Source: a virus. Taken from it: 20,307 bases of DNA. Each line of letters begins with the position of its first letter. Position 1 is the stretch's first letter. The notes beneath the pieces were generated by a model, which was given only the letters and a program-made list of their open reading frames with translations, did not search any database and had not been told where the DNA came from. The stretch spans positions 1 through 20,307 of the IMG/VR virus record IMGVR_UViG_3300002053_000083; one strand, 5' to 3'. Positions 59-18,812 of the stretch are shown one piece after another. The translations under genes and the position numbers were made by a program.

Positions 59-99
59 TATTCCTCCTCAAGCGTTATGGATTTCTTCATCCCATCGGC

Positions 100-324
100 T
101 TATTCAATGTTAAATTCTTCTTCTTTAAAAAATTCTTGTTCAATTGGTGATACAAAATCATAAGGTTCCCAATAACTAGGCTTTCCCATTGGTTGTACAC
201 TAACTAGCTCTTTTGCTATTAACTTAGGAAAATATTGTCTTAATAGAGGAATTCTAATTGTTTTACTTCTATCCCATGATGATAAATCTATTCCTATCTC
301 TGTATTTGGATCAAGTATACTCAT
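100..324 (-). CDS. 74-aa protein of unknown function with the shared acidic-aromatic C-terminal tail
   Basis: I do not recognise this small soluble protein. It opens with an ATG that overlaps the TGA of the uracil-DNA glycosylase gene (ATGA), and its ribosome site (GGAAGAAGAG) lies inside the last codons of that gene, so the two are translationally coupled. The body contains a short basic segment (SKTIRIPLLRQYFPKLIAKE) and no membrane segment or signal peptide. Its most informative part is the C-terminus, EFFKEEEFNIE. This nearly repeats the ends of the 90-aa protein, the glycosylase and the UvsW-like helicase in this window. Being small, in a replication unit and ending in this tail, it may be an adaptor for a replisome component; that is inference. 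Confidence 0.75.
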   Translation of the reverse strand: MSILDPNTEIGIDLSSWDRSKTIRIPLLRQYFPKLIAKELVSVQPMGKPSYWEPYDFVSPIEQEFFKEEEFNIE

Positions 325-959
325 ACGTTAAACTCTTCTTCCGTAAACCCCCAATTTTCATCTGGTGTATTATGGAATTCCTTAAATAGTTTCAAATCTT
401 CTTGTAATGCTGGCAATCCAATCTCTTCATTATAAAGTAAAAAAGCTGGATGAACAGTTATGAGAACTGGATATGATCTTGTACTTGGATCAAGCTGATA
501 TTGCCTGAATACTCCTCTTTGAGACATCACCCCCTCATAGCTTTCTGTAAAATAATACTTAGCATAATTTCCTAGACAAAGTATTTTTTCTGGATTTACT
601 ACTTTCAGGTATTTTCTTATCCAAGGTTGACAAGCATGTAATTCATTTCTTGTAGGCTTGCCATTAGAGCTTGTACCTGATTTTATTGCTCTGCAATTGA
701 CAGAGTTGATTATTAAAAAATCACTCTTTTTAAAACCACATCCATGTAATTGAGTGACTAGTATTTCTCCTGCTTGACCTACAAATGGTTCTCCTCCTTT
801 TACTTCGTGGAATCCTGGAGCTTCACCAACAATAGCATATCTACTATGCTTAGTCCAAAATGGTTTAGCCATTCCATTAACATACAATCCACAATTTTTA
901 CAATTTTTGAATTGCGAGTCCAATAGCTGTAACATTCTTATTTGTTTCTCACTCAACAT
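321..959 (-). CDS. Uracil-DNA glycosylase, family 4/5 type with iron-sulfur cysteines
   Basis: This enzyme should remove uracil from DNA and leave an abasic site. The 212-residue reading shows the family motifs in order: CKNC at 20-23, GEAPG at 45-49, PFVGQAG at 58-64, NSVNCR ending near 90, a further Cys at 110, and a late VHPAFLL motif. The four cysteines (20, 23, 89, 110) match those that bind the 4Fe-4S cluster in family 4 enzymes. An upstream Met at 1022 is in frame, but it would put 21 Lys-rich residues before the family's usual start. The Met at 959 has a good Shine-Dalgarno (AAGGAAGAG) and overlaps the previous gene by 11 bases, so I prefer it. The protein ends in GFTEEEFNV, the tail shared with three neighbours. 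Placement in a replication unit fits repair, or protection of phage DNA from uracil. Confidence 0.92.
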   Translation of the reverse strand: MLSEKQIRMLQLLDSQFKNCKNCGLYVNGMAKPFWTKHSRYAIVGEAPGFHEVKGGEPFVGQAGEILVTQLHGCGFKKSDFLIINSVNCRAIKSGTSSNGKPTRNELHACQPWIRKYLKVVNPEKILCLGNYAKYYFTESYEGVMSQRGVFRQYQLDPSTRSYPVLITVHPAFLLYNEEIGLPALQEDLKLFKEFHNTPDENWGFTEEEFNV

Positions 960-1221
960 CAAACTCTTCCTTCTTGAAAAATTCTTCTTTTTCTGGTTCA
1001 AGTCTTTTTTCAAGAGAATCAAAATATGAAGTTCCCAAATTATTTTGTCTTCTGGTTGAAGAAGCAGAGGACGAATACCAAGACATAGACATAGACGAAT
1101 AATCTCTATAATGAGGTTGCATTTCTCTAAATGTCCTTAGTTGTTCTTCTGAATACAACTGTCTATTGTTAACCCATTCACCAATCATTCCAATTAATCC
1201 TCCTAATAATTGATTAATCAT
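949..1221 (-). CDS. 90-aa protein of unknown function with the shared C-terminal tail
   Basis: I do not recognise this protein. The ATG at 1221-1219 overlaps the last eight bases of the replicative helicase gene (ATGATTAA) and follows a purine-rich GGAAGAAGAAGAAG stretch. An in-frame Met at 1275 would add 18 very acidic residues and bury more of the helicase gene, so the shorter form is preferred. Residues 1-15 form a hydrophobic, Gly-rich helix (MINQLLGGLIGMIGEW). The middle is rich in Ser, Met and Tyr, and the end is highly charged, finishing in EEFFKKEEFDVE. That tail closely matches the end of the 74-aa protein, and less closely the ends of the glycosylase and the UvsW-like helicase. Its position between helicase and glycosylase suggests a replication accessory role, which is inference. 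Confidence 0.72.
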   Translation of the reverse strand: MINQLLGGLIGMIGEWVNNRQLYSEEQLRTFREMQPHYRDYSSMSMSWYSSSASSTRRQNNLGTSYFDSLEKRLEPEKEEFFKKEEFDVE

Positions 1222-2617
1222 TTCTTCTTCTTCTTCCGTTTTGATTAGCTCTTCTTCTTTCAGCAATTGCTTCATGGTCTACAGAAGCCCTATCATCTCC
1301 TGATATTTCAGCTTCTTGAACCCATAGTTCTTGTTCACTTATGTCATACATCTTTAAACTTCTAGCGTCCATATAAAATTTCTCTATTTCTCCTACTCTA
1401 CCTCCTAACCTGTTCTTTGTTATCTTATAGAGTATTTCATTTTCATAAATCATTTTATCTTCATCTGTTCCAAGTATAGCCATAAAATCAGCGGTAGCTG
1501 GAACTCCCAAAGATTCAGCAACAAAGTTAAAATCTAGTGCATTGAAGTTTGCAAATGTTCCTTCTCTGTTTAATTGAGAAACTGATACTACAGGTATTTT
1601 GAATTCAAATGATAGTGCTCTTAGTTCTTCTGCAACTCTCTTGACAGTAGAGTACATATTTCTTTCTACTTTATATGCTGTCTTCATTAAGTTAATATAG
1701 TCAACATATAGAATATGAGGTTGTGTTCCTCTCATTATTAGCTCACGCAAATATACTTTGAAGTCAAGAACGGATGCTTCTCCAGTAGGATACTGTTTGA
1801 TAAACAACTCTCCTCTGTTCTCTGTTCTTTTGATTTCTCTGAGTTTAGATACTAACTGCTCTTTATATCTTCTTGACAAGTACATCCTGTTAATATCCAT
1901 ACAGGAATATATACCATCGAATCTTTGAGCAAAAGCGTCTTCTCCCATCTCAAGGGATATAACTACTGGATTGAATCCGTTTAGAACTTGCCTTGCCGCA
2001 AAATTAGCCATTGTGTTACTTTTACCACCATGAATTTTTGCAGTTAAGATGCTAAGAGTGAAAGGAGGGAATCCGTTGTTTATAAACTCATCGAATACAG
2101 GAAAAAATGTAGGTACTCTGTCTTCACTTGCAGTAAATATTCTATGTAACCTTATTCCTAAATGTTCAAAGTAGTGAAGCCCTAAATCTATCTTCAAATC
2201 CTTTATTAATGCTTTCTCTATTCTATCACGAATTTGATTTCTTCTTTCAGGGTCTTCTACTTCATCTATTGAGTCAACTATAGCATTTTTAAGAGCTTTC
2301 TCTTTTAAATAATCATTAGATTGCTCCAGTAAAAATTCATAACTTCGTGATAAATCAAATTCCAGAGATTCTACTTCTTCTATAAGGTTTCTTACTCCTT
2401 CTACATTTTCCTCCGAACAGTTTATTATTGAATCTCTTGAGGGAATATCGTTATATTCTGTAAAGTAGGTTTTACAGAACTCAAAGGCAACTCTAATATA
2501 AGGATCGTCAAAATACTTAGCTTCAAATACGGCAGATGTAAGAACTAAAAAGTCCTTGCTGTTCATAATACCTTTGATTATGAGCTTTTCTAAATAGTCA
2601 GAATTTATACGTTCCAT
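1214..2617 (-). CDS. Replicative DNA helicase, DnaB/RecA-fold type
   Basis: This 467-residue protein is a hexameric-type 5'-3' helicase that should unwind DNA at the phage fork. Residues 1 to about 150 are a helical N-terminal domain of DnaB style. The RecA-like domain has a P-loop variant AKIHGGKSNT with Lys199, the following VVISLEMG segment, the Walker B strand LYVDYINL with Asp306, and the sensor-like PVVSVSQLNREG. The C-terminus is very basic (RRRRND) and lacks the acidic tail of its neighbours. A near-consensus promoter ends only seven bases before the ATG, and no Shine-Dalgarno precedes it, so the message may be leaderless. An internal Met18 (2566-2564) with AAAGG before it is the alternative start, but the residues before it look like normal N-terminal domain. 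It is the first gene of its unit. Confidence 0.93.
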   Translation of the reverse strand: MERINSDYLEKLIIKGIMNSKDFLVLTSAVFEAKYFDDPYIRVAFEFCKTYFTEYNDIPSRDSIINCSEENVEGVRNLIEEVESLEFDLSRSYEFLLEQSNDYLKEKALKNAIVDSIDEVEDPERRNQIRDRIEKALIKDLKIDLGLHYFEHLGIRLHRIFTASEDRVPTFFPVFDEFINNGFPPFTLSILTAKIHGGKSNTMANFAARQVLNGFNPVVISLEMGEDAFAQRFDGIYSCMDINRMYLSRRYKEQLVSKLREIKRTENRGELFIKQYPTGEASVLDFKVYLRELIMRGTQPHILYVDYINLMKTAYKVERNMYSTVKRVAEELRALSFEFKIPVVSVSQLNREGTFANFNALDFNFVAESLGVPATADFMAILGTDEDKMIYENEILYKITKNRLGGRVGEIEKFYMDARSLKMYDISEQELWVQEAEISGDDRASVDHEAIAERRRANQNGRRRRND

Positions 2618-2624
2618 GTGGGTA

Positions 2625-2652
2625 ATTATAACAGATTTTTAGATTTTGTAAA
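2625..2652 (-). promoter_or_regulatory. Sigma70-like promoter for the replicative helicase unit
   Basis: On the minus strand TTTACA (2652-2647) is followed by a 16-base spacer and a perfect TATAAT (2630-2625). The helicase ATG begins seven bases beyond the -10 box, so initiation at the usual distance would start at or next to the AUG. It has host-type elements and lacks the late box seen elsewhere, which fits early or middle expression. Confidence 0.7.
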
Positions 2653-2669
2653 CGTACTAATTTTGTTAG

Positions 2670-2698
2670 TTTACTTTTTCTATTACTTATGTTACTAT
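2670..2698 (+). promoter_or_regulatory. Probable sigma70-like promoter for uvsY-uvsW
   Basis: TTTACT (2670-2675), a 17-base spacer and TACTAT (2693-2698) face the UvsY-like gene, with the start codon about 48 bases downstream. The -10 box is weaker than its divergent partner. The two -35 boxes lie back to back and form the outer arms of an imperfect inverted repeat (GTAAAC at 2648-2653 and GTTTAC at 2669-2674), which could serve as an operator shared by both directions. That last point is inference. Confidence 0.5.
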
Positions 2699-2745
2699 AC
2701 GTTAATGTAAATATATATAGTAAAGATATAATAGGAGAAATGTCT

Positions 2746-3159
2746 ATGACAGATGAAGAGAAGATATTTGAAGAGCTAAAACAGCAATATCCAATAGACC
2801 AGCTAATCAAATTTGATGAAACTGACATTCAAGAGAAGCTTCAAGACAACACTTTTCAAATAATCAAGTTCAAAGAGCTTTACTACAAGGAGCTTGATAT
2901 CTATGAAGACCTTGAAAGGAAACTTGAAGCTCTAACAGGCATAAGATATAAGCACTATAGATTTAATCAAGATGAAGAATGGAGCAAACCTGAAATTGAG
3001 AAATACTGTCTTCCAGCCGATAAGAAAATAATCAGAATGAAGAAGTTGTTAAAGAAACAAGGTGTAAGAGTAAGATTCTTTGAGATGTGCTATAAAGCAT
3101 TTGAACAGCAAGGATGGAGGATGAAGACATACACCGATAGAGAAAGACATGGCATTTGA
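2746..3159 (+). CDS. uvsY: UvsY-like recombination mediator protein
   Basis: In T4, UvsY helps load the UvsX recombinase onto single-stranded DNA coated with gp32. This 137-residue protein is the length of T4 UvsY and shows the same order of features: an acidic helical N-terminal half, a Lys/Glu-rich middle with paired helices, and a C-terminal part beginning with LPADKKIIRMKKLL, which matches the T4 'LSADKDVL...L' region. The aromatic GWRMKTY stretch near the end also fits. The ATG at 2746 has AGGAG at a good distance; ATGs at 2689 and 2740 are in frame but have no site or one that is too close. The gene overlaps the UvsW-like helicase gene by 11 bases, and these two genes are also neighbours in T4. 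The assignment is from pattern recognition, so a profile search would settle it. Confidence 0.75.
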   Translation: MTDEEKIFEELKQQYPIDQLIKFDETDIQEKLQDNTFQIIKFKELYYKELDIYEDLERKLEALTGIRYKHYRFNQDEEWSKPEIEKYCLPADKKIIRMKKLLKKQGVRVRFFEMCYKAFEQQGWRMKTYTDRERHGI

Positions 3160-4642
3160 AGCAAGATTATCGCTATATAAGAACATTAGAATAAAAATAC
3201 TTACCAATTCAAACGACTATATGAAGTCGATGAGAAAGGCTTTTACTTACAAGGTACAAGGCTATTATTGGATGCCTAAGTATAGAGCAGGAGTTTGGAA
3301 TGGTGAGTCTCCGTTGATTACTCCTGCTGGAACTTTCCCCTATGGAATACTTCCTGAATTTCTAAGAGAGCATAAGAAACATCCAGACGTTGAACTTAAA
3401 ATAGATGACGATGTAAAGAATCTTTTTAAGGGAGATGACTTGGATATAAAGTTTGACCTATCTTTGTTCCCTCATCCATATCAAAAAGAAGCTGTAGAAT
3501 ACTGCTTGAAATATACTAAAGGAATTATTAGAAGTGCTACCGCTTCTGGAAAATCTTTGGTTATCTCATATATCGTAAAAGCCCTTCTGGACAATAGAGA
3601 AAAAACAAAAGTACGTAGAGCTTTAATTATAGTTCCTTCAAAGCAACTGGTAGAACAGTTCTATACTGACATGCAGGAATATGGAATAAAAGGGGAATAC
3701 ATAGGACGTATCTATGACAAGATAAAAAACAAACCTGTTCAATGGGCCAAGACAATTGTAATTACTACGTGGCAATCACTTAAAAATAATACCAAGAGAT
3801 TAGTTGATTATGATGCAATCATTGGAGATGAGTGTCACCAAGTAAAAGCACATGAGCTAAAGAAAATTTTCTCCAAATCTCCAGCGAAATACAGATTAGG
3901 ATTTACTGGAACTATGCCAAACGATGAATTAGAAATACTTCAAACAAAATCCTTTTTAGGGCCAGTCCTAAGAGACTATCCTTCTGGACTATTAGGAGAA
4001 CAAGGCTATATAGCAAAATGTAATGTGAATGTTTTAAGTATTGATTATAATCGTTTGGAGCTTTCATCTGATTACTATCCAGACGTAAAGAGAGAGACAT
4101 TTGAAAATAAATTCAGAATGAAATTAATAAAGGATATAGTCAAGAATCTGGATCATAATGTTTTACTTCTGGTAGGATATAAAAGAGAAGGAAGACAATT
4201 GTTAAACTATCTTGGAAACTACACTAAAAGAAATACCATATTTCTTAGTGGAAATGATGACGTTGATTTCAGAGAGAAGTGGAGAAAGAAAATGATAGCT
4301 GAAAAGAACATTGCTCTAATTGCTACATATGGAATTTTCCAGCAAGGAATAAATATCCCTAATCTCAAATACCTTATATTAGCCGCTCCATTCAAATCTA
4401 AAATTAGAGTCCTTCAAAGCATTGGACGTGCTTTAAGAGCACATGAAGAAAAAAAAGAAGGTGCTTTTGTATTTGACATAGTTGATAACGTGAAGTACTT
4501 ACGTAAACATGGGAATGAAAGATATGAATTTTACAAAAGTGAAGGATTCAATATAAAAGAGGTAGACCTTAATGTTAGAGAACCTTATGATCTACCTCTT
4601 ATGTTCGACTTTCTATTTAGCCGTGAAGAATTTGAAGTTTAA
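3149..4642 (+). CDS. uvsW: UvsW-like SF2 DNA helicase
   Basis: T4 UvsW is a superfamily 2 helicase that rewinds and branch-migrates DNA during recombination-dependent replication and fork rescue. At 497 residues this protein is close to T4 UvsW in length. The N-terminal domain has the aromatic motif YYWMPKYRAGVWNG and the following YGILPEFL. The helicase core has Walker A ATASGKS at 130-136, a VPSKQLVEQF motif, DECH at 227-230, GFTGTMP, and motif VI QSIGRALR at 423-430. Its start lies inside the end of the UvsY-like gene. The C-terminus, FLFSREEFEV, carries the tail shared with three minus-strand neighbours. The stop codon overlaps that of the convergent phosphoesterase gene in the four bases TTAA, with no visible terminator between them. 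Confidence 0.92.
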   Translation: MAFEARLSLYKNIRIKILTNSNDYMKSMRKAFTYKVQGYYWMPKYRAGVWNGESPLITPAGTFPYGILPEFLREHKKHPDVELKIDDDVKNLFKGDDLDIKFDLSLFPHPYQKEAVEYCLKYTKGIIRSATASGKSLVISYIVKALLDNREKTKVRRALIIVPSKQLVEQFYTDMQEYGIKGEYIGRIYDKIKNKPVQWAKTIVITTWQSLKNNTKRLVDYDAIIGDECHQVKAHELKKIFSKSPAKYRLGFTGTMPNDELEILQTKSFLGPVLRDYPSGLLGEQGYIAKCNVNVLSIDYNRLELSSDYYPDVKRETFENKFRMKLIKDIVKNLDHNVLLLVGYKREGRQLLNYLGNYTKRNTIFLSGNDDVDFREKWRKKMIAEKNIALIATYGIFQQGINIPNLKYLILAAPFKSKIRVLQSIGRALRAHEEKKEGAFVFDIVDNVKYLRKHGNERYEFYKSEGFNIKEVDLNVREPYDLPLMFDFLFSREEFEV

Positions 4643-6576: not shown

Positions 6577-6869
6577 TATTTCTCCTTACCTTTACCTCTC
6601 CACTCTGTATTACCATAATAAGTATCTTTAAGGCTTGCACAAAAACCTTTAGCGTCACCTACTTTACCTTTCATCTTTGTAACACAAGCATCAAAAAACC
6701 CTTTCTTTCCTGGTGGATGCCCTATTGTCTTCCCAAATTTCTCTACAGAAGATTTTGTCCATCCAGCGGTTCTTACAGCATCTTCTTTAAGCTCTGGATC
6801 ATTCATCATTTCTTTAGTGTCAAGAATTAACTCTTCTACTTCAATTCTATCTAATATATCATCTGACAT
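6576..6869 (-). CDS. 97-aa protein with a two-Cys phage motif
   Basis: No function can be assigned. Residues 1-30 are acidic and helical (DDILDRIEVEELILDTKE). The C-terminal half holds a compact motif, GFFDACVTKMKGKVGDAKGF, followed by CASLKD and TEWRGK. The pattern F-x2-CV-x2-M...FCA-x-LKD...G-x-T-x-WRGK, with cysteines at 62 and 77, resembles a short module I associate with phage structural-region proteins; I cannot name a domain for it. Both ends use one-base TAATG overlaps with neighbours, and the start follows a GGAGGAT site. It is probably soluble, with no membrane segment or signal peptide. Confidence 0.8.
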   Translation of the reverse strand: MSDDILDRIEVEELILDTKEMMNDPELKEDAVRTAGWTKSSVEKFGKTIGHPPGKKGFFDACVTKMKGKVGDAKGFCASLKDTYYGNTEWRGKGKEK

Positions 6870-7087
6870 TACATATCCTCCAATCTATCATCTGCCATGT
6901 CTGTAAGTTTGATAGCTTCCTTTTGATCTATCTCTTTTTGACTGACAGCTTTTTTGATATCATTTAAAACTGCCGTAATTTCTTTGGCATTTTTAGCTCT
7001 TTTAATTCTATCGGAAAAGCTCTTGAACATTTTACTAGCTTCGTTAACTTTCCCTTCATTTAGATATTTGTCTATCAAATCATTCAT
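6869..7087 (-). CDS. 72-aa helical protein of unknown function
   Basis: This small, Lys-rich, almost wholly helical protein begins MNDLIDKYLNEGKVNEASKM, so it carries the I-D-K-x-L segment seen at an end of several proteins in this unit. The rest has heptad-like hydrophobic spacing and could form a helical hairpin or coiled coil. The ATG overlaps the end of the preceding gene by eight bases and follows a GGGAGGAAG site. No family is recognised. Confidence 0.78.
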   Translation of the reverse strand: MNDLIDKYLNEGKVNEASKMFKSFSDRIKRAKNAKEITAVLNDIKKAVSQKEIDQKEAIKLTDMADDRLEDM

Positions 7088-7750: not shown

Positions 7751-8719
7751 CTAACTTTCTTGTTTCTCTTTTTTGAAAAGGTTATTCATTTTATCCTTTG
7801 CTTTCTTAACAAGATCATGGTTTTTTGATAATTTAGCTCCAGAATATGTTAATGCCAATGATAATCCTTTTACTCCTCCTATCCATATAGGAAGTCCACC
7901 AGTAGCAAGTCCTATTCCTAATTGAGCCATTCCTTTTAATCCGCTGGTAGTTCCAAGCAAATCCTTCATTCCATACTCACCTTTTAATGCCGCTGGTAGA
8001 TTAGATAAATCATAATCGTCTTCTACATCTCCGCTAAATGTCATATTCAGCCATTGGTAGATCATAAATCCACCAATAGCCGCTCCACCAATTTTCTTTA
8101 AAGCTGGATGTTTTCCTAGAAACTCATCCACTTTCATAGCTCCAGATTTTAATTTTTTTAATGCTTTGGTTTTCTCAAGTTCTTCTATTGTTCCTTTTAA
8201 TCCTACATTCAAAGTTTTTATTGACTTTGAAGCGGCCTTTGCCATGTTGCCTACACTAAACCCAAAATGCTTCAAAACATTATATACTTTAGGTTGCTGG
8301 TATGCTTTTACTATATGATCTTTACTTGTCTTTAAATCACTAGCTATAGAATCCACATGTTTCCTTAGTTTTACGGCTACATTTTTCAGTCTTATCTTAT
8401 CACTATCTTCTCCACTACCTGTTTCTTCATCGTCTTCTGTTTCTGGTCTTACAGCTTTACGTGGTTCTATATCCACAAGCTTGCCAGCTTTGGATACGGC
8501 TATTACAGTATCCTTGTTATCCTTAGTAGTATATCTCCCGAACCCGATGTATTCCAGTCCTCTTTTCTTTGCTTCATCACTAGCCTCACTTTCGTCTAAA
8601 GGTGAATATTCTATAAGATAGTCTAAGTCCTCATCACTACATTCAAGAATATCACAATATAGCTCATAAGTTATAGCGTCAAGATAAGAGTTATCTTTTA
8701 AATATTGCTTAAATTTCAT
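7751..8719 (-). CDS. 322-aa protein with hydrophobic C-terminal segments, possible internal virion protein
   Basis: No family is named with confidence. Residues 1-45 are acidic and begin MKFKQYLKD, which recalls the short N-terminal capsid-targeting peptides of T4 internal proteins; this is only a resemblance. Residues 51-85 hold GLEYIGFGRYTTKDNKDTVI followed by GKLVDIEP, a small module I associate with T4-like phage proteins. An acidic linker (91-108) leads to a Lys-rich helical part. Two hydrophobic segments follow, at about 210-226 and 265-291, rich in Gly and Ala. These could insert in a membrane or pack inside a capsid. The ATG follows the previous stop directly (TAAATG). Late expression and the amphipathic build suggest a virion or ejected protein, which is inference. 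Confidence 0.8.
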   Translation of the reverse strand: MKFKQYLKDNSYLDAITYELYCDILECSDEDLDYLIEYSPLDESEASDEAKKRGLEYIGFGRYTTKDNKDTVIAVSKAGKLVDIEPRKAVRPETEDDEETGSGEDSDKIRLKNVAVKLRKHVDSIASDLKTSKDHIVKAYQQPKVYNVLKHFGFSVGNMAKAASKSIKTLNVGLKGTIEELEKTKALKKLKSGAMKVDEFLGKHPALKKIGGAAIGGFMIYQWLNMTFSGDVEDDYDLSNLPAALKGEYGMKDLLGTTSGLKGMAQLGIGLATGGLPIWIGGVKGLSLALTYSGAKLSKNHDLVKKAKDKMNNLFKKEKQES

Positions 8720-10576: not shown

Positions 10577-13500
10577 TTATTTCGTTTTTATCGTTTTTAT
10601 ACCCACATGAGGTTTATTATTTTTCTCTATTGGTTCCACGTCTAAATATTCTTCTTGTTTCTCTTCTCTTAGAGTTATATTAATACTAACTTTCTTAGGT
10701 TTTTTTCTTGGTTTTCTTTCAGTTACCTTTATATCAATTGCTCTATCAAATCTTTTTGGAAGTTTTATACTAATTCTTACAGCACTTGAACTAGAACTTG
10801 AACTAATAGAACTTGAACTTGAAGTTGAGCTTAAAGACGAAGAAGAACTACTTGACGAAGATGATGAAGAATCAAAGTCAAAGAAAAATACAGGTTTTCT
10901 ATAAAGGTCTTCATAATATTCTTCTCCTCCACCTGTATCAAATTCACTTGAACTTGAACTCTTAGAACTTGATGAAGAACTTAAAGAACTTGAACTTGAA
11001 GATATTGATGAACTTGAAGAAGATTTGGAGCTACTTGAATAAGAACAAGATGATGATGATTCAGATGAGGATGATTTTGAACTTGACGAAGAAGAAAAGC
11101 TACTTGAACTGCTTGAGGAACTTAAACTAGATGAAGAAGAGCTACTTGAAGAAGAACTTGAACTTGAAGACAAAGAGCTTGAACTACTGCTACTTGATGA
11201 GGAAGAACTGCTACTGCTTGATGAAGAAGAACTACTTGAACTGGAACTTAATGAACTTGAAGAGGAGCTTGAAGAACTGCTTGATGAAGAGGAGCTTGAA
11301 GAACTGCTTGATGAAGAACTGGAACTACTTGAGCTTGAAGAACTAGATGAACTTATAGAAGATGATGAAGAAGAACTACTTGAGGAGCTACTTGAAGACG
11401 AAGACGAACTTGAACTGGAACTGCTTGACGAAGATGAACTGCTTGACGAAGATGAACTGCTTGACGAAGATGAACTTGAGCTACTGGAACTTGATTTACT
11501 TGAAGAACTTGATGAAAAAGAACTTGAAGATGAAGAAATTGAAGACGGGCAAATCAACTCATCCCAATAAACAACTTCAAAATTATCTAAATCAATATAA
11601 ACCTGTTCTCCATTAGCTTTGTAGAAATAAAGTTCTACATATATATCTGAATTATCATTATTAGTTACTTTTCTTCCTGTAGTACTTGTTCCCCATTCCC
11701 ATCTAGTTTGAGATTGATCCCAATAATAAACTCTAATTTCACCAGATGATCTTGTGATTCTAAACTTACCATCTTCATCTACCGTGTTTATAGTTTCTTC
11801 ACTAACATCCAAACCATCTGATAAATATCTAACTTGAGTATTATTTTCTATTCCAATATTAGCTAGTAAAACATTGTCTGAACTTCTTCTTATTATAAGA
11901 TTAAATCCACTATCAGCAGAAGTATTAACAGCCGTAGCAAAATCAAAGAATTCAATAATTATTTCATAATCTCCACCTAATTCAAAGCGTGAGTTTAACT
12001 CTGATATAGCAGAACCAGAAGTTACATTGGCATCATAATTAAGCTGATTATCGAAAATAGTAAGAAAATCATTATCATTTTGAACTGTATCCCATCTATT
12101 AAAATTAATTTGAGATTCACTAAATTCATCATTAGGATCAAGAAAACATGAATAAGATGAAGATGAAGATGATCCACTAAAACTAGAACTTGATGAAGAT
12201 GCAGAAGAGGAACTTGATGATGAACTAATAGAACTACTAGAGCTAGAGCTGGATAGAGAGCTTGAACTGGAAGATGAAGATGATGAACTACTTATTGAAC
12301 TACTAGAACTGGAACTGCTTGAGCTAAATGAGCTACTTGAGGAAGAGCTTGAAGAGCTAAATGAACTTGAAGACGAAGAACTACTTGAACTTGACGAAGA
12401 ACTTGAAGAACTGCTTGATGAACTTGAGGACGATGAACTACTTGAAGAACTAAAACTACTAGATGAAGAAGAACTTGAAGAGCTTGACGAAGAGCTTGAT
12501 GAAGAAGAGCTACTTGAAGAAGTTGAAGAGCTACTTGAGGAAGAACTAAAGCTACTTGATGAACTGCTTGATGACGATGAACTACTGGAACTTGATGAAC
12601 TGCTTGAGGAAGAACTAAAGCTACTTGAACTTGAAGAAGATGAAGAACTGCTACTTGATGAAGAAGAGCTACTTGAGGAAGAACTAAAGCTACTTGAACT
12701 TGAAGAAGATGAGCTACTTGAACTAGAAGAAGATGAGCTACTTGAAGAAGAACTAAAGCTACTGGAACTTGATGAAGAAGAGCTACTTGAAGATGATGAT
12801 GAAGAAGATGAGCTACTTGAACTAAATGAACTACTGGAACTGCTAGAACTACTTGAACTTGACGAAGAACTTGAAGAAGATATGCTACTTGAACTACTTG
12901 AAGATGATGAGCTTCCACTAAAAGAACTACTGCTACTTGAACTTGAACTGCTTGAAGAAGAGGAACTACTTGAACTTGAAGATGATGATGAACTTGAGGA
13001 GCTACTTGATGAAGAAGAGCTACTTGATGAAGATGAAGAAGAAAATGAACTTGAGGAGCTACTTGAACTGGAACTGCTACTTGAAGATGAAGAACTTGAA
13101 GAAGAGCTACTTAATGAGGATGATGAGGAACTGCTACTAGAACTGCTACTTGATGAAGATGAGCTACTTGATGATGACGATGAACTAGAACTGGAACTGC
13201 TAGAAGATGAAGATGAACTTGAAAATGAACTTGAAGACGAAGAACTACTAGAGCTTGAACTACTTGACGAAGACGAACTTGAAGATGAAGAACTGCTTGA
13301 ACTTGACGAAGAAGAACTTGAAGACGAAGAGCTAAAGCTACTGGAACTTGAGGACGATGAGCTTGAACTACTTGATGAAGAAGAACTACTTGATGAAGAA
13401 CTAAAGCTACTGGAACTTGACGAAGAACTGCTTGAAGAACTGCTTGAGGAAGACGAACTACTTGATGAACTTGAAGAACTGGAGCTTGAACTTGAGGAGC

Positions 13501-15409
13501 TACTTGAACTAGAAAATGAACTTGAAGATGAACTTGAACTGCTTGAGGAACTTGATGAACTGGAACTGCTACTTGATGAAGAAGAGCTACTTGAAAATGA
13601 ACTTGAAGAACTTGATGAACTGGAACTGCTTGAGGAAGACGAACTACTTGATGAACTTGAAGAAAATGAAGAAGAACTACTTGACGAAGAACTTGACGAA
13701 GATGAACTTGATGAAGAACTGGAGCTACTTGAACTTGATGAACTGCTACTACTTGAGGAAGACGAAGAAAATGAACTTGAAGATGAACTTGATGAACTGG
13801 AGCTACTTGAACTTGATGAAGAACTGGAGCTACTTGAACTTGATGAACTGCTACTACTTGAGGAAGACGAAGAAAATGAACTTGAAGAACTTGACGAAGA
13901 AGAACTTGAACTACTACTTGAAGACGAAGAACTACTTGAGGAAGATGATGAACTTGAGGAAGATGAACTTGAAAATGAAGAACTACTTGAACTTGATGAA
14001 CTACTACTTGAAGACGAAGAACTACTTGAACTTGAACTACTAAATGAACTAGATGAACTACTTGAGGATGAGCTTGATGAAGATGAGCTTGATGAAGATG
14101 AAGAAAATGAACTTGAACTACTTGAACTTGAACTGCTACTTGAAGATGAAGAACTACTTGATGAAGATGAAGAAAATGAACTTGAACTACTTGAACTGGA
14201 ACTGCTACTTGAAGATGAAGAACTACTTGATGAAGAGGAACTTGAACTACTGGAACTTGATGAAGAGGAAGAAGAAGAAAATGAACTGGAACTACTTGAA
14301 GAAGAACTTGATGAACTGGAAGAGGAACTTGAGGAGCTACTTGAACTTGAACTACTTGATGAAGAACTGGAGCTTGAAGAACTACTACTAAAAGAACTAG
14401 AAGAAGATGAGCTTGAGGAAGAACTGGAACTTGAGCTTGAAGACGATGAAGAAGAACTACTTGAAAATGAACTTGAACTACTTGAACTACTGCTACTTGA
14501 AGAAGAACTACTGCTACTTGAAGAAGAACTACTGCTACTAAAAGAACTAGAAGAAGATGAGCTTGATGAACTACTTGACGAAGAACTTGAAGAACTGGAA
14601 CTTGAAGAACTGGAGCTTGAACTACTACTTGATGAAGAACTGGAACTTGAAGAAGATGAAGATGAACTTGATGAAAAAGAACTACTGCTACTTGAACTGG
14701 AGCTACTTGAACTGGAGCTACTTGAACTGGAGCTTGAACTTGAACTTGAACTACTACTTGATGAAGAACTTGAACTTGAAGAAGATGAAGAAGAACTTGC
14801 AAAATAGTTAAGATTAAAAGCTACTAATGCGTTTTTTGATCTAGTTGGAAAAGTCCAAGACATTGTAACATTAGTAGCTCCAGGTTCCGTTGAAGCAGAG
14901 CCGTTAGTTACTGTATTAGGACTTAAATTATATCTTTCTGTTTGTCCTGCACCTACAGTTGCTTTATAGTTATCTATGCTAAAAGCATCTACAACCATAT
15001 TATCAATAGCAGATGCTACTGTAACTTGAGTAGGAGATGTCGTATTTCCAGAAGCAGTTTGAACTCCGCTTGTGGGAGTAGTGGGATCAACAAAATTAAA
15101 TGTCATTGCTCCAACTACTATATTTGCAATAGTAGATGGATGAGTAACAACTACGTCAGCAGTAGTATTAGAGCTAACAACAAGTCCATAAACAAAAGTA
15201 CTAGCACCAGCAGGATTTGTTGCACTTCCAATCAATGACATGGAAACACCATTGAAAGTCACACTACTAGGTGTTGTCATGTTTGTGCTTTGATGAATAG
15301 CTACAACTAGAAATGCACTAGAACCATTAACTTGATGATTAGTTATGGTATGAGTTGTAGCATTTTGAGTAAATGCTACGGAACTCTGATTTACAAAAGT
15401 TACAGCCAT
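10577..15409 (-). CDS. Giant poly-serine protein, probable fibre or virion surface protein
   Basis: This 1610-residue protein has three folded parts separated by serine tracts. Residues 1-204 are a Thr/Ser/Val-rich beta domain. Residues 205-1085 are almost pure Ser with about 28 single Phe and rare Leu, Ile, Gly, Thr. Residues 1086-1288 are a second beta domain resembling a lectin or LamG-type sandwich (NRWDTVQNDN, YEIIIEFFDF, VYIDLDNFEVVYWDE), with Cys1088 and Cys1287 at its two ends. A second tract (1289-1488), a short acidic-aromatic spacer, a third tract (1514-1542) and a basic C-terminal part (1543-1610) follow. Serine is written with AGY and TCN codons mixed, so selection on the protein is likely. 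The start has GAGGAA and lies three bases after the previous gene. Long flexible serine linkers suggest an extended, possibly glycosylated fibre; this role is inferred from composition and late context. Confidence 0.85.
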   Translation of the reverse strand: MAVTFVNQSSVAFTQNATTHTITNHQVNGSSAFLVVAIHQSTNMTTPSSVTFNGVSMSLIGSATNPAGASTFVYGLVVSSNTTADVVVTHPSTIANIVVGAMTFNFVDPTTPTSGVQTASGNTTSPTQVTVASAIDNMVVDAFSIDNYKATVGAGQTERYNLSPNTVTNGSASTEPGATNVTMSWTFPTRSKNALVAFNLNYFASSSSSSSSSSSSSSSSSSSSSSSSSSSSSSSSSSSSSSSSFSSSSSSSSSSSSSSSSSSSSSSSSSSSSSSSSSSSSSSSSSSSSFSSSSSSSSSSSSSSSSSSSSSSSSFSSSSSSSSSSSSSSSSSSSSSSSSFSSSSSSSSSSSSSSSSSSSSSSSSSSSSSSSSSSSSFSSSSSSSSSSSSSSSSSSSSSSSSSSSSSSSSSSFSSSSSSSSSSSSSSSSSSSSSSFSSSSSSSSSSSSSSSSSSSSFSSSSSSSSSSSSSSSSSSSSSSFSSSSSSSSSSSSSSSSSSSSSSSSSSSSSSSSFSSSSSSSSSSSSSSSSSSSSSSSSSSSSSSSSSSFSSSSSSSSSSSSSSSSSSSSSSSSSSSSSSSSSSFSSSSSSSSSSSSSSSSSSSSSSFSSSSSSSSSSSSSSSSSSSSSSSSSSFSSSSSSSSSSSSSSSSSSSSSSSSSSSSSSSSSSSSFSSSSSSSSSSSSSSSSSSSSSSFSSSSSSSSSSSSSSSSSSSSSSSSSSSSSSSSSSSSFSSSSSSSSSSSSSSSSSSSSSSSSSSSSSSSSSSSSLSSSSSSSSSSSSSSSSSSSSSSFSSSSSSSSSSSSSSSSSSSSSSSSSSSSSSSSSSSSSSSSFSGSSSSSSSSSSISSSSSSSSSSSSSSSSSSFSSSSSSSSSSSSSSSSSSSSSSFSSSSSSSSSSSSSSSSSSSSSSFSSSSSSSSSSSSSSSSSSSSSSFSSSSSSSSSSSSSSSSSSSSSSFSSSSSSSSTSSSSSSSSSSSSSSSSSSSSSSFSSSSSSSSSSSSSSSSSSSSSSSSSSSSSSFSSSSSSSSSSFSSSSSSSSSSISSSSSSSSSSSSLSSSSSSSSISSSSSSSSASSSSSSFSGSSSSSSYSCFLDPNDEFSESQINFNRWDTVQNDNDFLTIFDNQLNYDANVTSGSAISELNSRFELGGDYEIIIEFFDFATAVNTSADSGFNLIIRRSSDNVLLANIGIENNTQVRYLSDGLDVSEETINTVDEDGKFRITRSSGEIRVYYWDQSQTRWEWGTSTTGRKVTNNDNSDIYVELYFYKANGEQVYIDLDNFEVVYWDELICPSSISSSSSSFSSSSSSKSSSSSSSSSSSSSSSSSSSSSSSSSSSSSSSSSSSSSSSSSSSSSSISSSSSSSSSSSSSSSSSSSSSSSSSSSSSSSSSSLSSSSSSSSSSSSSSSSSSSSSSSSSLSSSSSSSSSSSSSSSLSSSSSSSSFSSSSSSKSSSSESSSSCSYSSSSKSSSSSSISSSSSSLSSSSSSKSSSSSEFDTGGGEEYYEDLYRKPVFFFDFDSSSSSSSSSSSSLSSTSSSSSISSSSSSSAVRISIKLPKRFDRAIDIKVTERKPRKKPKKVSINITLREEKQEEYLDVEPIEKNNKPHVGIKTIKTK
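11262..11315. repeat. 27-base tandem duplication in the second serine tract
   Basis: Two identical 27-base units lie head to tail (11262-11288 and 11289-11315), each encoding nine serines on the minus strand. The exact match at all codon positions points to recent duplication. Confidence 0.8.
11421..11474. repeat. Three exact 18-base tandem repeats in the second serine tract
   Basis: The unit ctgcttgacgaagatgaa occurs three times in a row (11421, 11439, 11457). Each encodes six serines on the minus strand. Identity at silent positions indicates recent slippage or recombination. Confidence 0.85.
12155..14797. repeat. 2.6-kb degenerate serine-codon repeat array with periodic phenylalanine
   Basis: This stretch encodes residues 205-1085 of the poly-serine protein. 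On the plus strand it is a purine-rich mixture of gaa, ctt, act, gat and gag words. Phe codons (TTT) interrupt it, and the commonest interval is 69 bases: the five Phe codons at 12548, 12617, 12686, 12755 and 12824 are exactly 69 bases apart. Longer exact duplications also occur, for example 13703-13783 repeated at 13808-13888, offset 105 bases. Because the tract lacks stops in other frames, long overlapping readings appear on both strands and should not be taken as genes. Confidence 0.9.
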
Positions 15410-17615: not shown

Positions 17616-17988
17616 ATCTCCTCCTATATTTTATCCATGTAGGCCATCCACCTACATAGACAGCTAAATAAATACAGTTTCTCTTCCATTGAGGAACTTC
17701 TAAAACTTTCATTGCTTCATAAAATATTTTTTCGCATACTGATTTTTTGGCATAGTTAAATCTATACATCCAATCATGTAGTACTGCCGCTTTAGCATGA
17801 TTGTCTATTGGTGAGATAATGGGCCAAAAGATTCTTGGAACAGAAGCAAAGTCAGTAATAAATCCTATTGGAACTTTTATTACTTGTTCAGATGGATAGT
17901 CTCCAACATGATATTCAAATGGTTCCGTTAGTCTAAATAAATTCTTTCCAATTACTTCTACTATACACGGTGTTGTAAATTGGCTCAT
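17590..17988 (-). CDS. DUF1353 family protein
   Basis: This 132-residue protein shows the family signature clearly: VPIGFITDFASVPRIFWPI (TDFASVPR at 45-52) followed by KAAVLHDWMY (HDWMY at 71-75). DUF1353 proteins are found widely in tailed phages; their role has not been established to my knowledge. The conserved Asp, His and Asp residues could form an active or metal site. The C-terminal YVGGWPTWIKYRRRYDYKR is basic, and its YRRRY codons double as the ribosome site of the next gene. The start overlaps the protease stop (ATGA). The tight coupling to a protease and two glycosyltransferase-like genes suggests one shared late function. Confidence 0.88.
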   Translation of the reverse strand: MSQFTTPCIVEVIGKNLFRLTEPFEYHVGDYPSEQVIKVPIGFITDFASVPRIFWPIISPIDNHAKAAVLHDWMYRFNYAKKSVCEKIFYEAMKVLEVPQWKRNCIYLAVYVGGWPTWIKYRRRYDYKRICV

Positions 17989-18812
17989 ATTAGTTTATCT
18001 CCTGCTCTTTCTTTTATTATTTTTCTAGTAACTTGCAAGTCTTTTGCTACCCATGCATCCCACATGAAGTCATTTATATATCTATAGGAAAGAAAACCAT
18101 ATCCGCTTTTTCCCCATCCTGTTCCCCATGAGTTTTTGAATTTAATCTGCTTTGCATTATCAGAAAATCCCACTACGCAAATAGCATGACCTCCGTAAAG
18201 ATTATTTGGATTAGCTGGATATGGAACTACTCCTGTTTCAAAATTAGGACGGAGTATTTCTTCAAAACAAGCAATACCAATAACTACAGGCCCATCTAGT
18301 AAAGCTGTTCTCAATTCGTCTATAGTTGCTATTCTCCAATAAGAATCTATAAGACCCCATTTGGCTACAAGACTGGCCCATGATTCAGGTTCTCCTTTAA
18401 ACCTATCGTCATACTCCCATCCAGCTTCACAAGGAATTCCTATCTTGTGAATTACTTGCATTGCACATCTAATACTTGTTCCTTCCTGATTAGGCCAAGG
18501 ATCAATTTTCTTTGAATTCCAATAAACCCACGCTTCTGATAAATCATAATGATCTTCTTTTCTTGTATACTTCTTTCCTGCCGCTACTTCCTCCATGTGC
18601 TCTTTCTGTTCTTGAAATTCCTTCATTGCCGCTACAGCAAATCCAACACATGATCCAAGTCTTCCTTGATCTTTTACAGGACTCATATATTTTGTCCAAT
18701 CAATATAATTTACAGGAGTTTCTGTAGTAATTGGTTTCATACTTGAAAATTTAAAATCCCTGTTATCTTTTTTATCTTTCCTTAATGTCAGTCTGAAATT
18801 TTTCTTAATCAT
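17985..18812 (-). CDS. Papain-like cysteine protease (peptidase family C1)
   Basis: This 275-residue protein has the full papain catalytic set. VKDQGRLGSCVGFA gives the oxyanion Gln and the nucleophile Cys55, GGHAICVVGF gives His209, and KNSWGTGWGKSGYGF gives Asn227. Before the core lies a short basic stretch (about residues 1-30) with KDNRDFKF, much shorter than a classical inhibitory propeptide. No secretion signal is present, so the enzyme acts in the infected cell or in the virion. The start shares one base with the stop of the 335-aa gene (TAATG) and follows AAGGAGGAA. Late expression suggests cleavage of a virion protein, or a virion-borne enzyme that acts on host surface proteins. The substrate is unknown. 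Confidence 0.92.
   Translation of the reverse strand: MIKKNFRLTLRKDKKDNRDFKFSSMKPITTETPVNYIDWTKYMSPVKDQGRLGSCVGFAVAAMKEFQEQKEHMEEVAAGKKYTRKEDHYDLSEAWVYWNSKKIDPWPNQEGTSIRCAMQVIHKIGIPCEAGWEYDDRFKGEPESWASLVAKWGLIDSYWRIATIDELRTALLDGPVVIGIACFEEILRPNFETGVVPYPANPNNLYGGHAICVVGFSDNAKQIKFKNSWGTGWGKSGYGFLSYRYINDFMWDAWVAKDLQVTRKIIKERAGDKLI

Follow-up and report, generated by a model that had tools for sequence, protein, structure and literature searches.

The proteins gp43, gp55 and gp33 of phage T4 bind the sliding clamp gp45 through interchangeable motifs at their C-termini, the conservation of which does not extend to every T4-like phage (PMC2988020; PMC7892883). A short C-terminal peptide on otherwise unrelated proteins was predicted in a 20.3-kb fragment of an uncultured T4-like phage (IMG/VR record IMGVR_UViG_3300002053_000083, positions 1 to 20,307), and this whole stretch of 20,307 nucleotides is referred to here as the window. 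The original prediction, made from the sequence alone, had listed four proteins with nearly the same end, a 74-residue protein, a 90-residue protein, a uracil-DNA glycosylase (UDG) and a UvsW-like helicase, and had interpreted this tail as a docking tag. All four ends are present in the window exactly as given, and these four are the only ones of this type among the 24 called genes. On balance, it is probable that the tail is a lineage-specific docking peptide, by which a changing set of accessory modules is held to a single partner at the replisome.

To place the window, relatives were gathered by searches with UvsW, DnaB, DNA polymerase, capsid protein and UvsY, and with a degenerate tail pattern. 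Nineteen related contigs were read, all of them fragments, with no complete genome of the clade among them. Close cultured relatives were not found, the best identities being 34% for UvsW, 30-32% for DnaB and 31% for the UDG. Within the group, the tail follows the consensus x-[FLGW]-[FL]-x-[EK]-[ED]-[ED]-F-x-[ILV], at times extended by one or two residues. In 1,272 distinct proteins (244,578 residues) of the window and the 19 contigs, the pattern EEFx[IVL] was observed 22 times at no more than two residues from the C-terminus, where 0.115 occurrences were expected, and seven times internally, which corresponds to a rate of 3.0e-5 per position. A position-specific matrix detected 38 C-termini versus five internal windows above 14 bits (2,194 proteins, 423,514 residues). 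This matrix was trained on 20 tails and is thus partly circular; the regular expression is the less circular test of chance, because the matrix derives from the tails themselves.

At least eight types of carriers with natural variants of the tail were recognised. They cluster beside dnaB and the polymerase gene (pol) in several combinations, nearly always with at least one carrier per locus, and they also occur away from it (G002, 8.2 kb; G008, 1.7 kb). Among the small carriers, type A, represented by the 90-residue protein, adjoins dnaB, and types B (the 74-residue protein) and C lie between dnaB or the UDG gene and pol, or adjoin uvsY in outgroups. Further carriers are an unrelated 81-residue protein in G005, a Cys-rich 91-residue protein in G002 and a SWIM-like zinc-finger protein in G008, whose Pfam match is below threshold. 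Outgroup small proteins show weaker tails (FDILMEEDFII, NFFSEKDFTI), their labels "Zn-ribbon-like" and "SH3-like" being impressions; Pfam and PHROGs searches with the type A, SH3-like and Zn-ribbon carriers yielded nothing usable. DnaB, UvsY, DNA polymerase, RecA/UvsX, gp55 and ligase of the group are all devoid of the tail. A generic tail for all replisome proteins was rejected, as in relatives of 107-132 kb no more than one or two proteins besides the UDG possess it. The notion of a phage-specific tail on otherwise unrelated proteins is borne out for proteins of the replication and recombination neighbourhood in this phage group. Listing the C-termini, as had been proposed, revealed a strong excess at this position, with the correction that a single repair enzyme and a single helicase are among the carriers. 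The tail is not scattered over virion proteins, which largely disposes of the concern that it might turn up there at random.

The UDG has a confidently predicted body (PF03167, 84.9 bits; AlphaFold2 (AF2) model with a predicted local distance difference test score (pLDDT) of 91.7). Foldseek assigned it to the family-4 UDG/UdgX proteins (4zbx, 1vk2 and UdgX at E about 1e-15), and its alignment shows the conserved Cys and the GEAPG/HP motifs. By its modelled fold and these motifs, the protein is a family-4 uracil-DNA glycosylase. Its tail is kept in all 12 members of the clade (polymerase identity of about 58% or more), so that the possible objection of a tail missing from related glycosylases does not apply, and is absent or unrecognisable in three outgroup UDGs. 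The linker preceding the tail varies in length and sequence across the clade, and the pLDDT drops to 55-65 at the C-terminus of the otherwise confident model. According to the model, the UDG tail is a flexible appendix, as a docking tag should look. The same objection held in part for UvsW, since among 25 UvsW proteins the tail is clear only in that of the window, weak in G013 and absent in the others.

Pairwise comparisons revealed that the tail is better preserved than the proteins carrying it. In the type A proteins of the window and of G004, all 12 tail residues are identical in spite of four synonymous changes, compared to 44 of 73 residues in the body, and a second type A pair gave similar values (12 of 12 with four synonymous changes; body 37 of 82). 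The type B protein and its G004 orthologue agree in 11 of 12 tail residues and in 23 of 61 body residues. UDG tails are looser (8 of 12 residues), with E-E-E-F fixed. Judged by these substitutions, the tail is under purifying selection as a peptide.

The bodies of the small carriers have a content of their own. With the 74-residue type B protein, the Gp23 profile PF07068 scored 23.7 bits, just below the cut-off of 24.4, while a blastp-short comparison with the major capsid proteins of the group gave E 1.3e-7 and a hidden Markov model (HMM) of the latter E 1.6e-5. Scores above the PF07068 cut-off were obtained for the type B protein of G004 (31.0 bits) and for two type C proteins (29.8 and 26.3 bits). 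The type B segment matches the conserved N-terminal region of gp23, i.e. the N-arm in the first quarter of the protein, and ends at VQPM. Type C contains a different segment (KxRTRKLKxxWTLE), which in G006 is preceded by GYKxxxxxDxGxIYxPYIxL and hence found in permuted order, and in G003 and L188 two or three gp23 segments are combined in one protein of 79-102 residues, skipping a long intervening capsid stretch. As an unbiased test, an HMM built from about 50 capsid proteins of the group was run against 18,740 small open reading frames (ORFs). Nine matches with E<0.06 were obtained, eight of them with the tail and the ninth a truncated copy in L002, and the next match followed at E=2.1. The L188 protein, ending with PWLDDKDFLI, had been missed by the tail pattern and was found by this HMM; almost everything that it retrieved from 50,697 phage records is annotated as a capsid gene. 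It follows that capsid segments and tail are coupled. Types B and C comprise 58-102 residues, and the profile matches cover short segments, compared to about 400 residues of a complete HK97-fold. On the basis of these matches, the proteins carry gp23 segments and are not capsid proteins. A derivation of the tail from the end of the gp23 spine helix, considered from a MAFFT alignment, is not supported, as the HMM matches end before the tail. In the near-identical relative L002 (contig 3300002053_000126, 4015-4449), the sequence linking the type B body to the start of the polymerase gene has changed, with tail, leader and polymerase start lost and the frame running on, which is a deletion or an assembly error. 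No precedent for capsid-protein fragments in small proteins of a replication gene cluster was found in the literature searched.

Type A possesses the sequence LGxxYFxxLxxRL, a 13-residue motif that is also present in DnaB, just before the motor domain. Within the 423,514 residues, the expression G..YF..[LI]..R[LFMI] is confined to DnaB helicases and type A proteins, and a type A HMM recovered DnaB at E 0.0005-0.002. In the reciprocal search, a DnaB HMM did not recover type A, and for this reason the presence of a DnaB helicase motif in type A is regarded as suggestive. A second, weaker similarity (LLGGxIGxI versus DnaB residues 395-440) was not counted. The start of the type A gene might lie further upstream, since an alternative ATG at position 1275 leads to a version of 108 residues. 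The earlier suggestion that the two small proteins may be adaptors proved too generic in view of the capsid segments in one of them and the helicase motif in the other.

It is likely that the tail docks, as far as can be judged from its sequence and distribution. In this uncultured T4-like phage group, the peptide would tether modules, most of them encoded around uvsY, dnaB and the DNA polymerase gene, to a shared partner at the replisome. The family-4 UDG would be the constant module in one clade, and the small proteins with gp23 segments (types B and C) and type A with its DnaB motif would rotate. Elsewhere, this role may fall to zinc-finger domains, to further small domains and occasionally to UvsW. 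The bodies of the small proteins are presumably exchanged on a constant 3' end, as suggested by the last small gene, which has almost the same tail DNA under different bodies. The borrowed segments could enable the small proteins to bind partners of the helicase ring, or neighbours and chaperones of the capsid protein. As to the partner, a PCNA-like sliding clamp of the phage would be the foremost candidate, because the UvsW and UDG tails resemble the T4 clamp motifs; SSB or another hub is possible. The UvsW tail of the window contains FDFLF and the UDG tails [DE]W[LF]F, similar to SLDFLFG in gp43 and SLDFLYEAND in gp55. Even so, this analogy makes the clamp a doubtful assignment. Several observations weigh against the picture drawn here. 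The case for the clamp is one of resemblance, and the tails of the small proteins (EFFKEEEF) fit the T4 motif L-[DE]-[FW]-L-[FY] poorly. The polymerase of the group ends in a different, LKVFF-like motif, and its gp55 is devoid of the T4 C-terminal clamp motif and has a Lys-rich end (G001, 61650-62093; G002, 51829-52302); the tail can thus not serve as a clamp signature in general. Searches with the T4 gp45 HMM and protein identified no clamp gene. By its position adjoining gp44- and gp62-like genes, a 244-residue ORF of G003 (46576-47310) is a guess for the sliding clamp, for which neither Pfam nor PHROG gave a match. Moreover, the occurrence of the tail on UvsW is sporadic across the relatives, and the AF2 model of the capsid-segment protein L188 is poor (pLDDT 58). 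Of the docking tag originally predicted, a real, selected, phage-group-specific peptide that is flexible on the UDG stands, with a clamp, SSB or similar hub as its putative partner.

With more reservation, we consider an "interface-mimic" locus, in which miniproteins combine segments from assembling proteins of the same phage (gp23; the DnaB linker region) with the docking tail shared with the UDG. Such proteins would place capsid- or helicase-like surfaces at the shared replisome hub and could, for example, regulate the helicase or capsid assembly, or mislead host sensors of the capsid protein.

The T4 Gol peptide, a ligand of EF-Tu and activator of the Lit protease, is reported to span 29 residues within the first quarter of gp23 and to be the best-conserved part of that protein (PMC3014915). 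Several defences are triggered by capsid proteins (PMC9712102). It is conceivable, though rather unlikely, that the capsid-segment miniproteins are the central element and the tail a mere anchor. They might then be decoys or competitors which show conserved gp23 surfaces to host factors sensing or binding the capsid protein, by an interaction of the Gol/Lit/EF-Tu type or in a different defence that senses capsids, or which poison the capsid assembly of competitors. The type B segment belongs to the same quarter of gp23 as Gol, and the rapid divergence and exchange of the bodies would fit an arms race. On the other hand, the correspondence of this segment to Gol is presumed from residue numbers, type C uses other gp23 segments, and a Gol-like peptide is expected to trigger Lit rather than to block it. 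Moreover, the same tail on the UDG, SWIM and Zn-ribbon proteins would be left unexplained.

Another possibility, which appears improbable, is that the tail is a C-terminal peptide directing the UDG and the miniproteins to the capsid or prohead for packaging. The miniproteins do contain gp23 segments, and the capsid targeting sequence (CTS) of T4 is a terminal peptide of ten residues (PMC9026906) to which some tails (EFIAEEEF) are superficially similar. However, the carriers are encoded in the replication cluster and not in the head cluster, the DNA on which UDG and UvsW act is intracellular, and none of the many small proteins of the group with CTS-like N-terminal starts is tailed. The T4 CTS itself was rejected as a model, since the tail is C-terminal instead of N-terminal and does not overlap with the CTS-like N-termini. 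The latter (MxLIDKYLxEx, MKFKxYLxE) are found on many small proteins, in runs of adjacent genes (Table 1).

A function of the tail as a degron, by which a host or phage protease would set the lifetime of early proteins, is very unlikely. Its C-terminal position and the small, regulatory-looking carriers would fit, but an acidic tail with an aromatic residue is unlike the hydrophobic, AA-ending degrons of the ssrA type, and a degron would not be expected to be so strictly conserved on a repair enzyme, as the tail is in 12 of 12 relatives. There is hardly more reason to assume a local duplication, by which one tail-bearing 3' end was copied into neighbouring genes and then drifted neutrally. In its favour, the last small gene has almost the same tail DNA in lineages whose bodies differ. 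Yet the tails are more conserved than the bodies, the tail DNA of UDG and UvsW differs from that of the small genes, and carriers also exist outside the locus, as mentioned above for G002 and G008; duplication may account for the origin of the tail, not for its maintenance. Finally, a nucleotide constraint with the purine-rich GAAGAAGAG doubling as ribosome-binding site of an overlapping next gene can be practically dismissed and is largely refuted. In several operons, the tail does run straight into an ATGA overlap with the start of the next gene. However, codon usage is ordinary (GAG 0.15 versus 0.21 in the genome), synonymous substitutions are readily tolerated, the FF upstream is conserved and so is the F downstream, and tails persist where no gene overlaps, i.e. 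on UvsW, whose next gene is convergent and thus cannot be served by it, and on the last tagged gene before pol, where a leader with a ribosome-binding site of its own comes next.

Table 1. Features of the tail locus and of related genes (positions refer to the window unless a contig is named)
Feature	Position	Strand	Basis or remark
Start of family-B DNA polymerase gene (MFINAFYDTKNSIMHLFEQ...), cut by contig end	1..59	-	Compared with complete polymerases of relatives
Conserved hairpin-forming leader from last tagged gene to DNA polymerase gene	69..102; conserved stretch 57-103	-
74-residue protein (type B)	100..324	-	Capsid-protein-like segment, short linker, tail
Tail EFFKEEEFNIE of 74-residue protein	103..135	-
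gp23-like segment IRIPLLRQYFPKLIAKELVSVQPMGKPS (residues 22-49 of 74-residue protein)	178..261	-	PF07068 match 22-49 and alignments
Family-4-type uracil-DNA glycosylase, 212 residues	321..959	-	PF03167, AF2, Foldseek
UDG tail WGFTEEEFNV	324..353	-	Clade conservation and low pLDDT
90-residue protein (type A), Ser-rich, with DnaB-like motif and tail	949..1221	-
Type A tail EFFKKEEFDVE	952..984	-	Comparison with G004 orthologue
Type A motif LGTSYFDSLEKRL, common to DnaB	1000..1038	-	Regular expression and HMM
DnaB-like replicative helicase (gp41 type), without tail	1214..2617	-	phrog_19, E 1e-63; PF03796
DnaB segment LGLHYFEHLGIRLHRI matching type A motif	2138..2185	-	Regular expression
UvsY-like recombination mediator, without tail	2689..3159	+	PF11056, 24.4 bits (cut-off 22.8)
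UvsW-like helicase	3149..4642	+	phrog_16, E 1.9e-83; UvsW_N
UvsW tail FDFLFSREEFEV	4604..4639	+
Small proteins with CTS-like start	6869-7087, 7751-8719; G003, about 55-62 kb; G001, about 85-106 kb

The minus strand encodes, in this order, the DnaB-like helicase, the 90-residue protein, the UDG, the 74-residue protein and the start of the family-B DNA polymerase; UvsY and then UvsW are located on the plus strand. The polymerase leader (ATAAGCCGATGGG...CCATAACGCTTGAGGAGG) is strongly conserved in the window and in L107, L109, L111, L092, L099, L113 and L100, and forms a two-part hairpin immediately 5' of the ribosome-binding site. By analogy to T4 gene 43, it is possibly an autoregulatory operator; an Rfam search with the leader gave no match. 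In L166 (2958-6226), a 203-residue GIY-YIG-like ORF interrupts the polymerase gene, the C-terminal half of which is an ORF of its own. This looks like an intron with a homing endonuclease or a split polymerase. Elsewhere in the window, a 1,610-residue protein (10577-15409, minus strand) consists mostly of serine runs broken by single Phe or Leu residues and contains a non-repetitive domain; related serine-rich proteins occupy the same position in relatives. A papain-like cysteine protease (17985-18812, minus strand; PF00112, 50.2 bits) lies amid genes without known function and is kept in relatives.

If the tail is a docking peptide for a replisome partner, it provides a concrete peptide with which the replisome hub of an uncultured T4-like phage could be sought, and if all tails bind one hub, the set of carriers is the client list of this hub. 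Should EF-Tu, capsid neighbours or immune sensors turn out to be partners of the capsid fragments, replication would be linked to capsid supply or to capsid-sensing immunity. The UDG body of the window is comparable to archaeal family-4 UDGs, being family-4/UdgX-like by fold, and archaeal UDGs bind PCNA. However, the phage tail does not correspond to the canonical PCNA-interacting peptide (PIP) box (QxxLxxFF), which was rejected by inspection since the Q and L positions are not conserved among the tails. SSB C-termini and the acidic tail of T4 gp32 have in common with the group's tails an acidic C-terminus and a Phe in the terminal region, but the SSB tail sits on the hub and its partners have the pockets, whereas in the phage group the tail sits on many clients. 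T4 UvsX (...LSDMEEFNE) ends with EEFN and an acidic residue; it is a single T4 protein, though, and the UvsX of the group ends otherwise. With T4 gp23 (PF07068), types B and C share the conserved N-arm segment and other conserved segments. What separates them from gp23 is the limited length of 20-45 residues per segment, the sometimes permuted order, the lack of a full fold, the tail and the location in the replication cluster. The T4 clamp motifs of gp43, gp55 and gp33 are likewise short hydrophobic/acidic C-terminal peptides on unrelated proteins, in their case of replication and transcription. By contrast, the carriers in the window group are UDG, UvsW and miniproteins instead of polymerase or gp55, and their tails have an additional EE[ED]Fx[ILV] end, those of the small proteins being without the L-D-F-L-F spacing.

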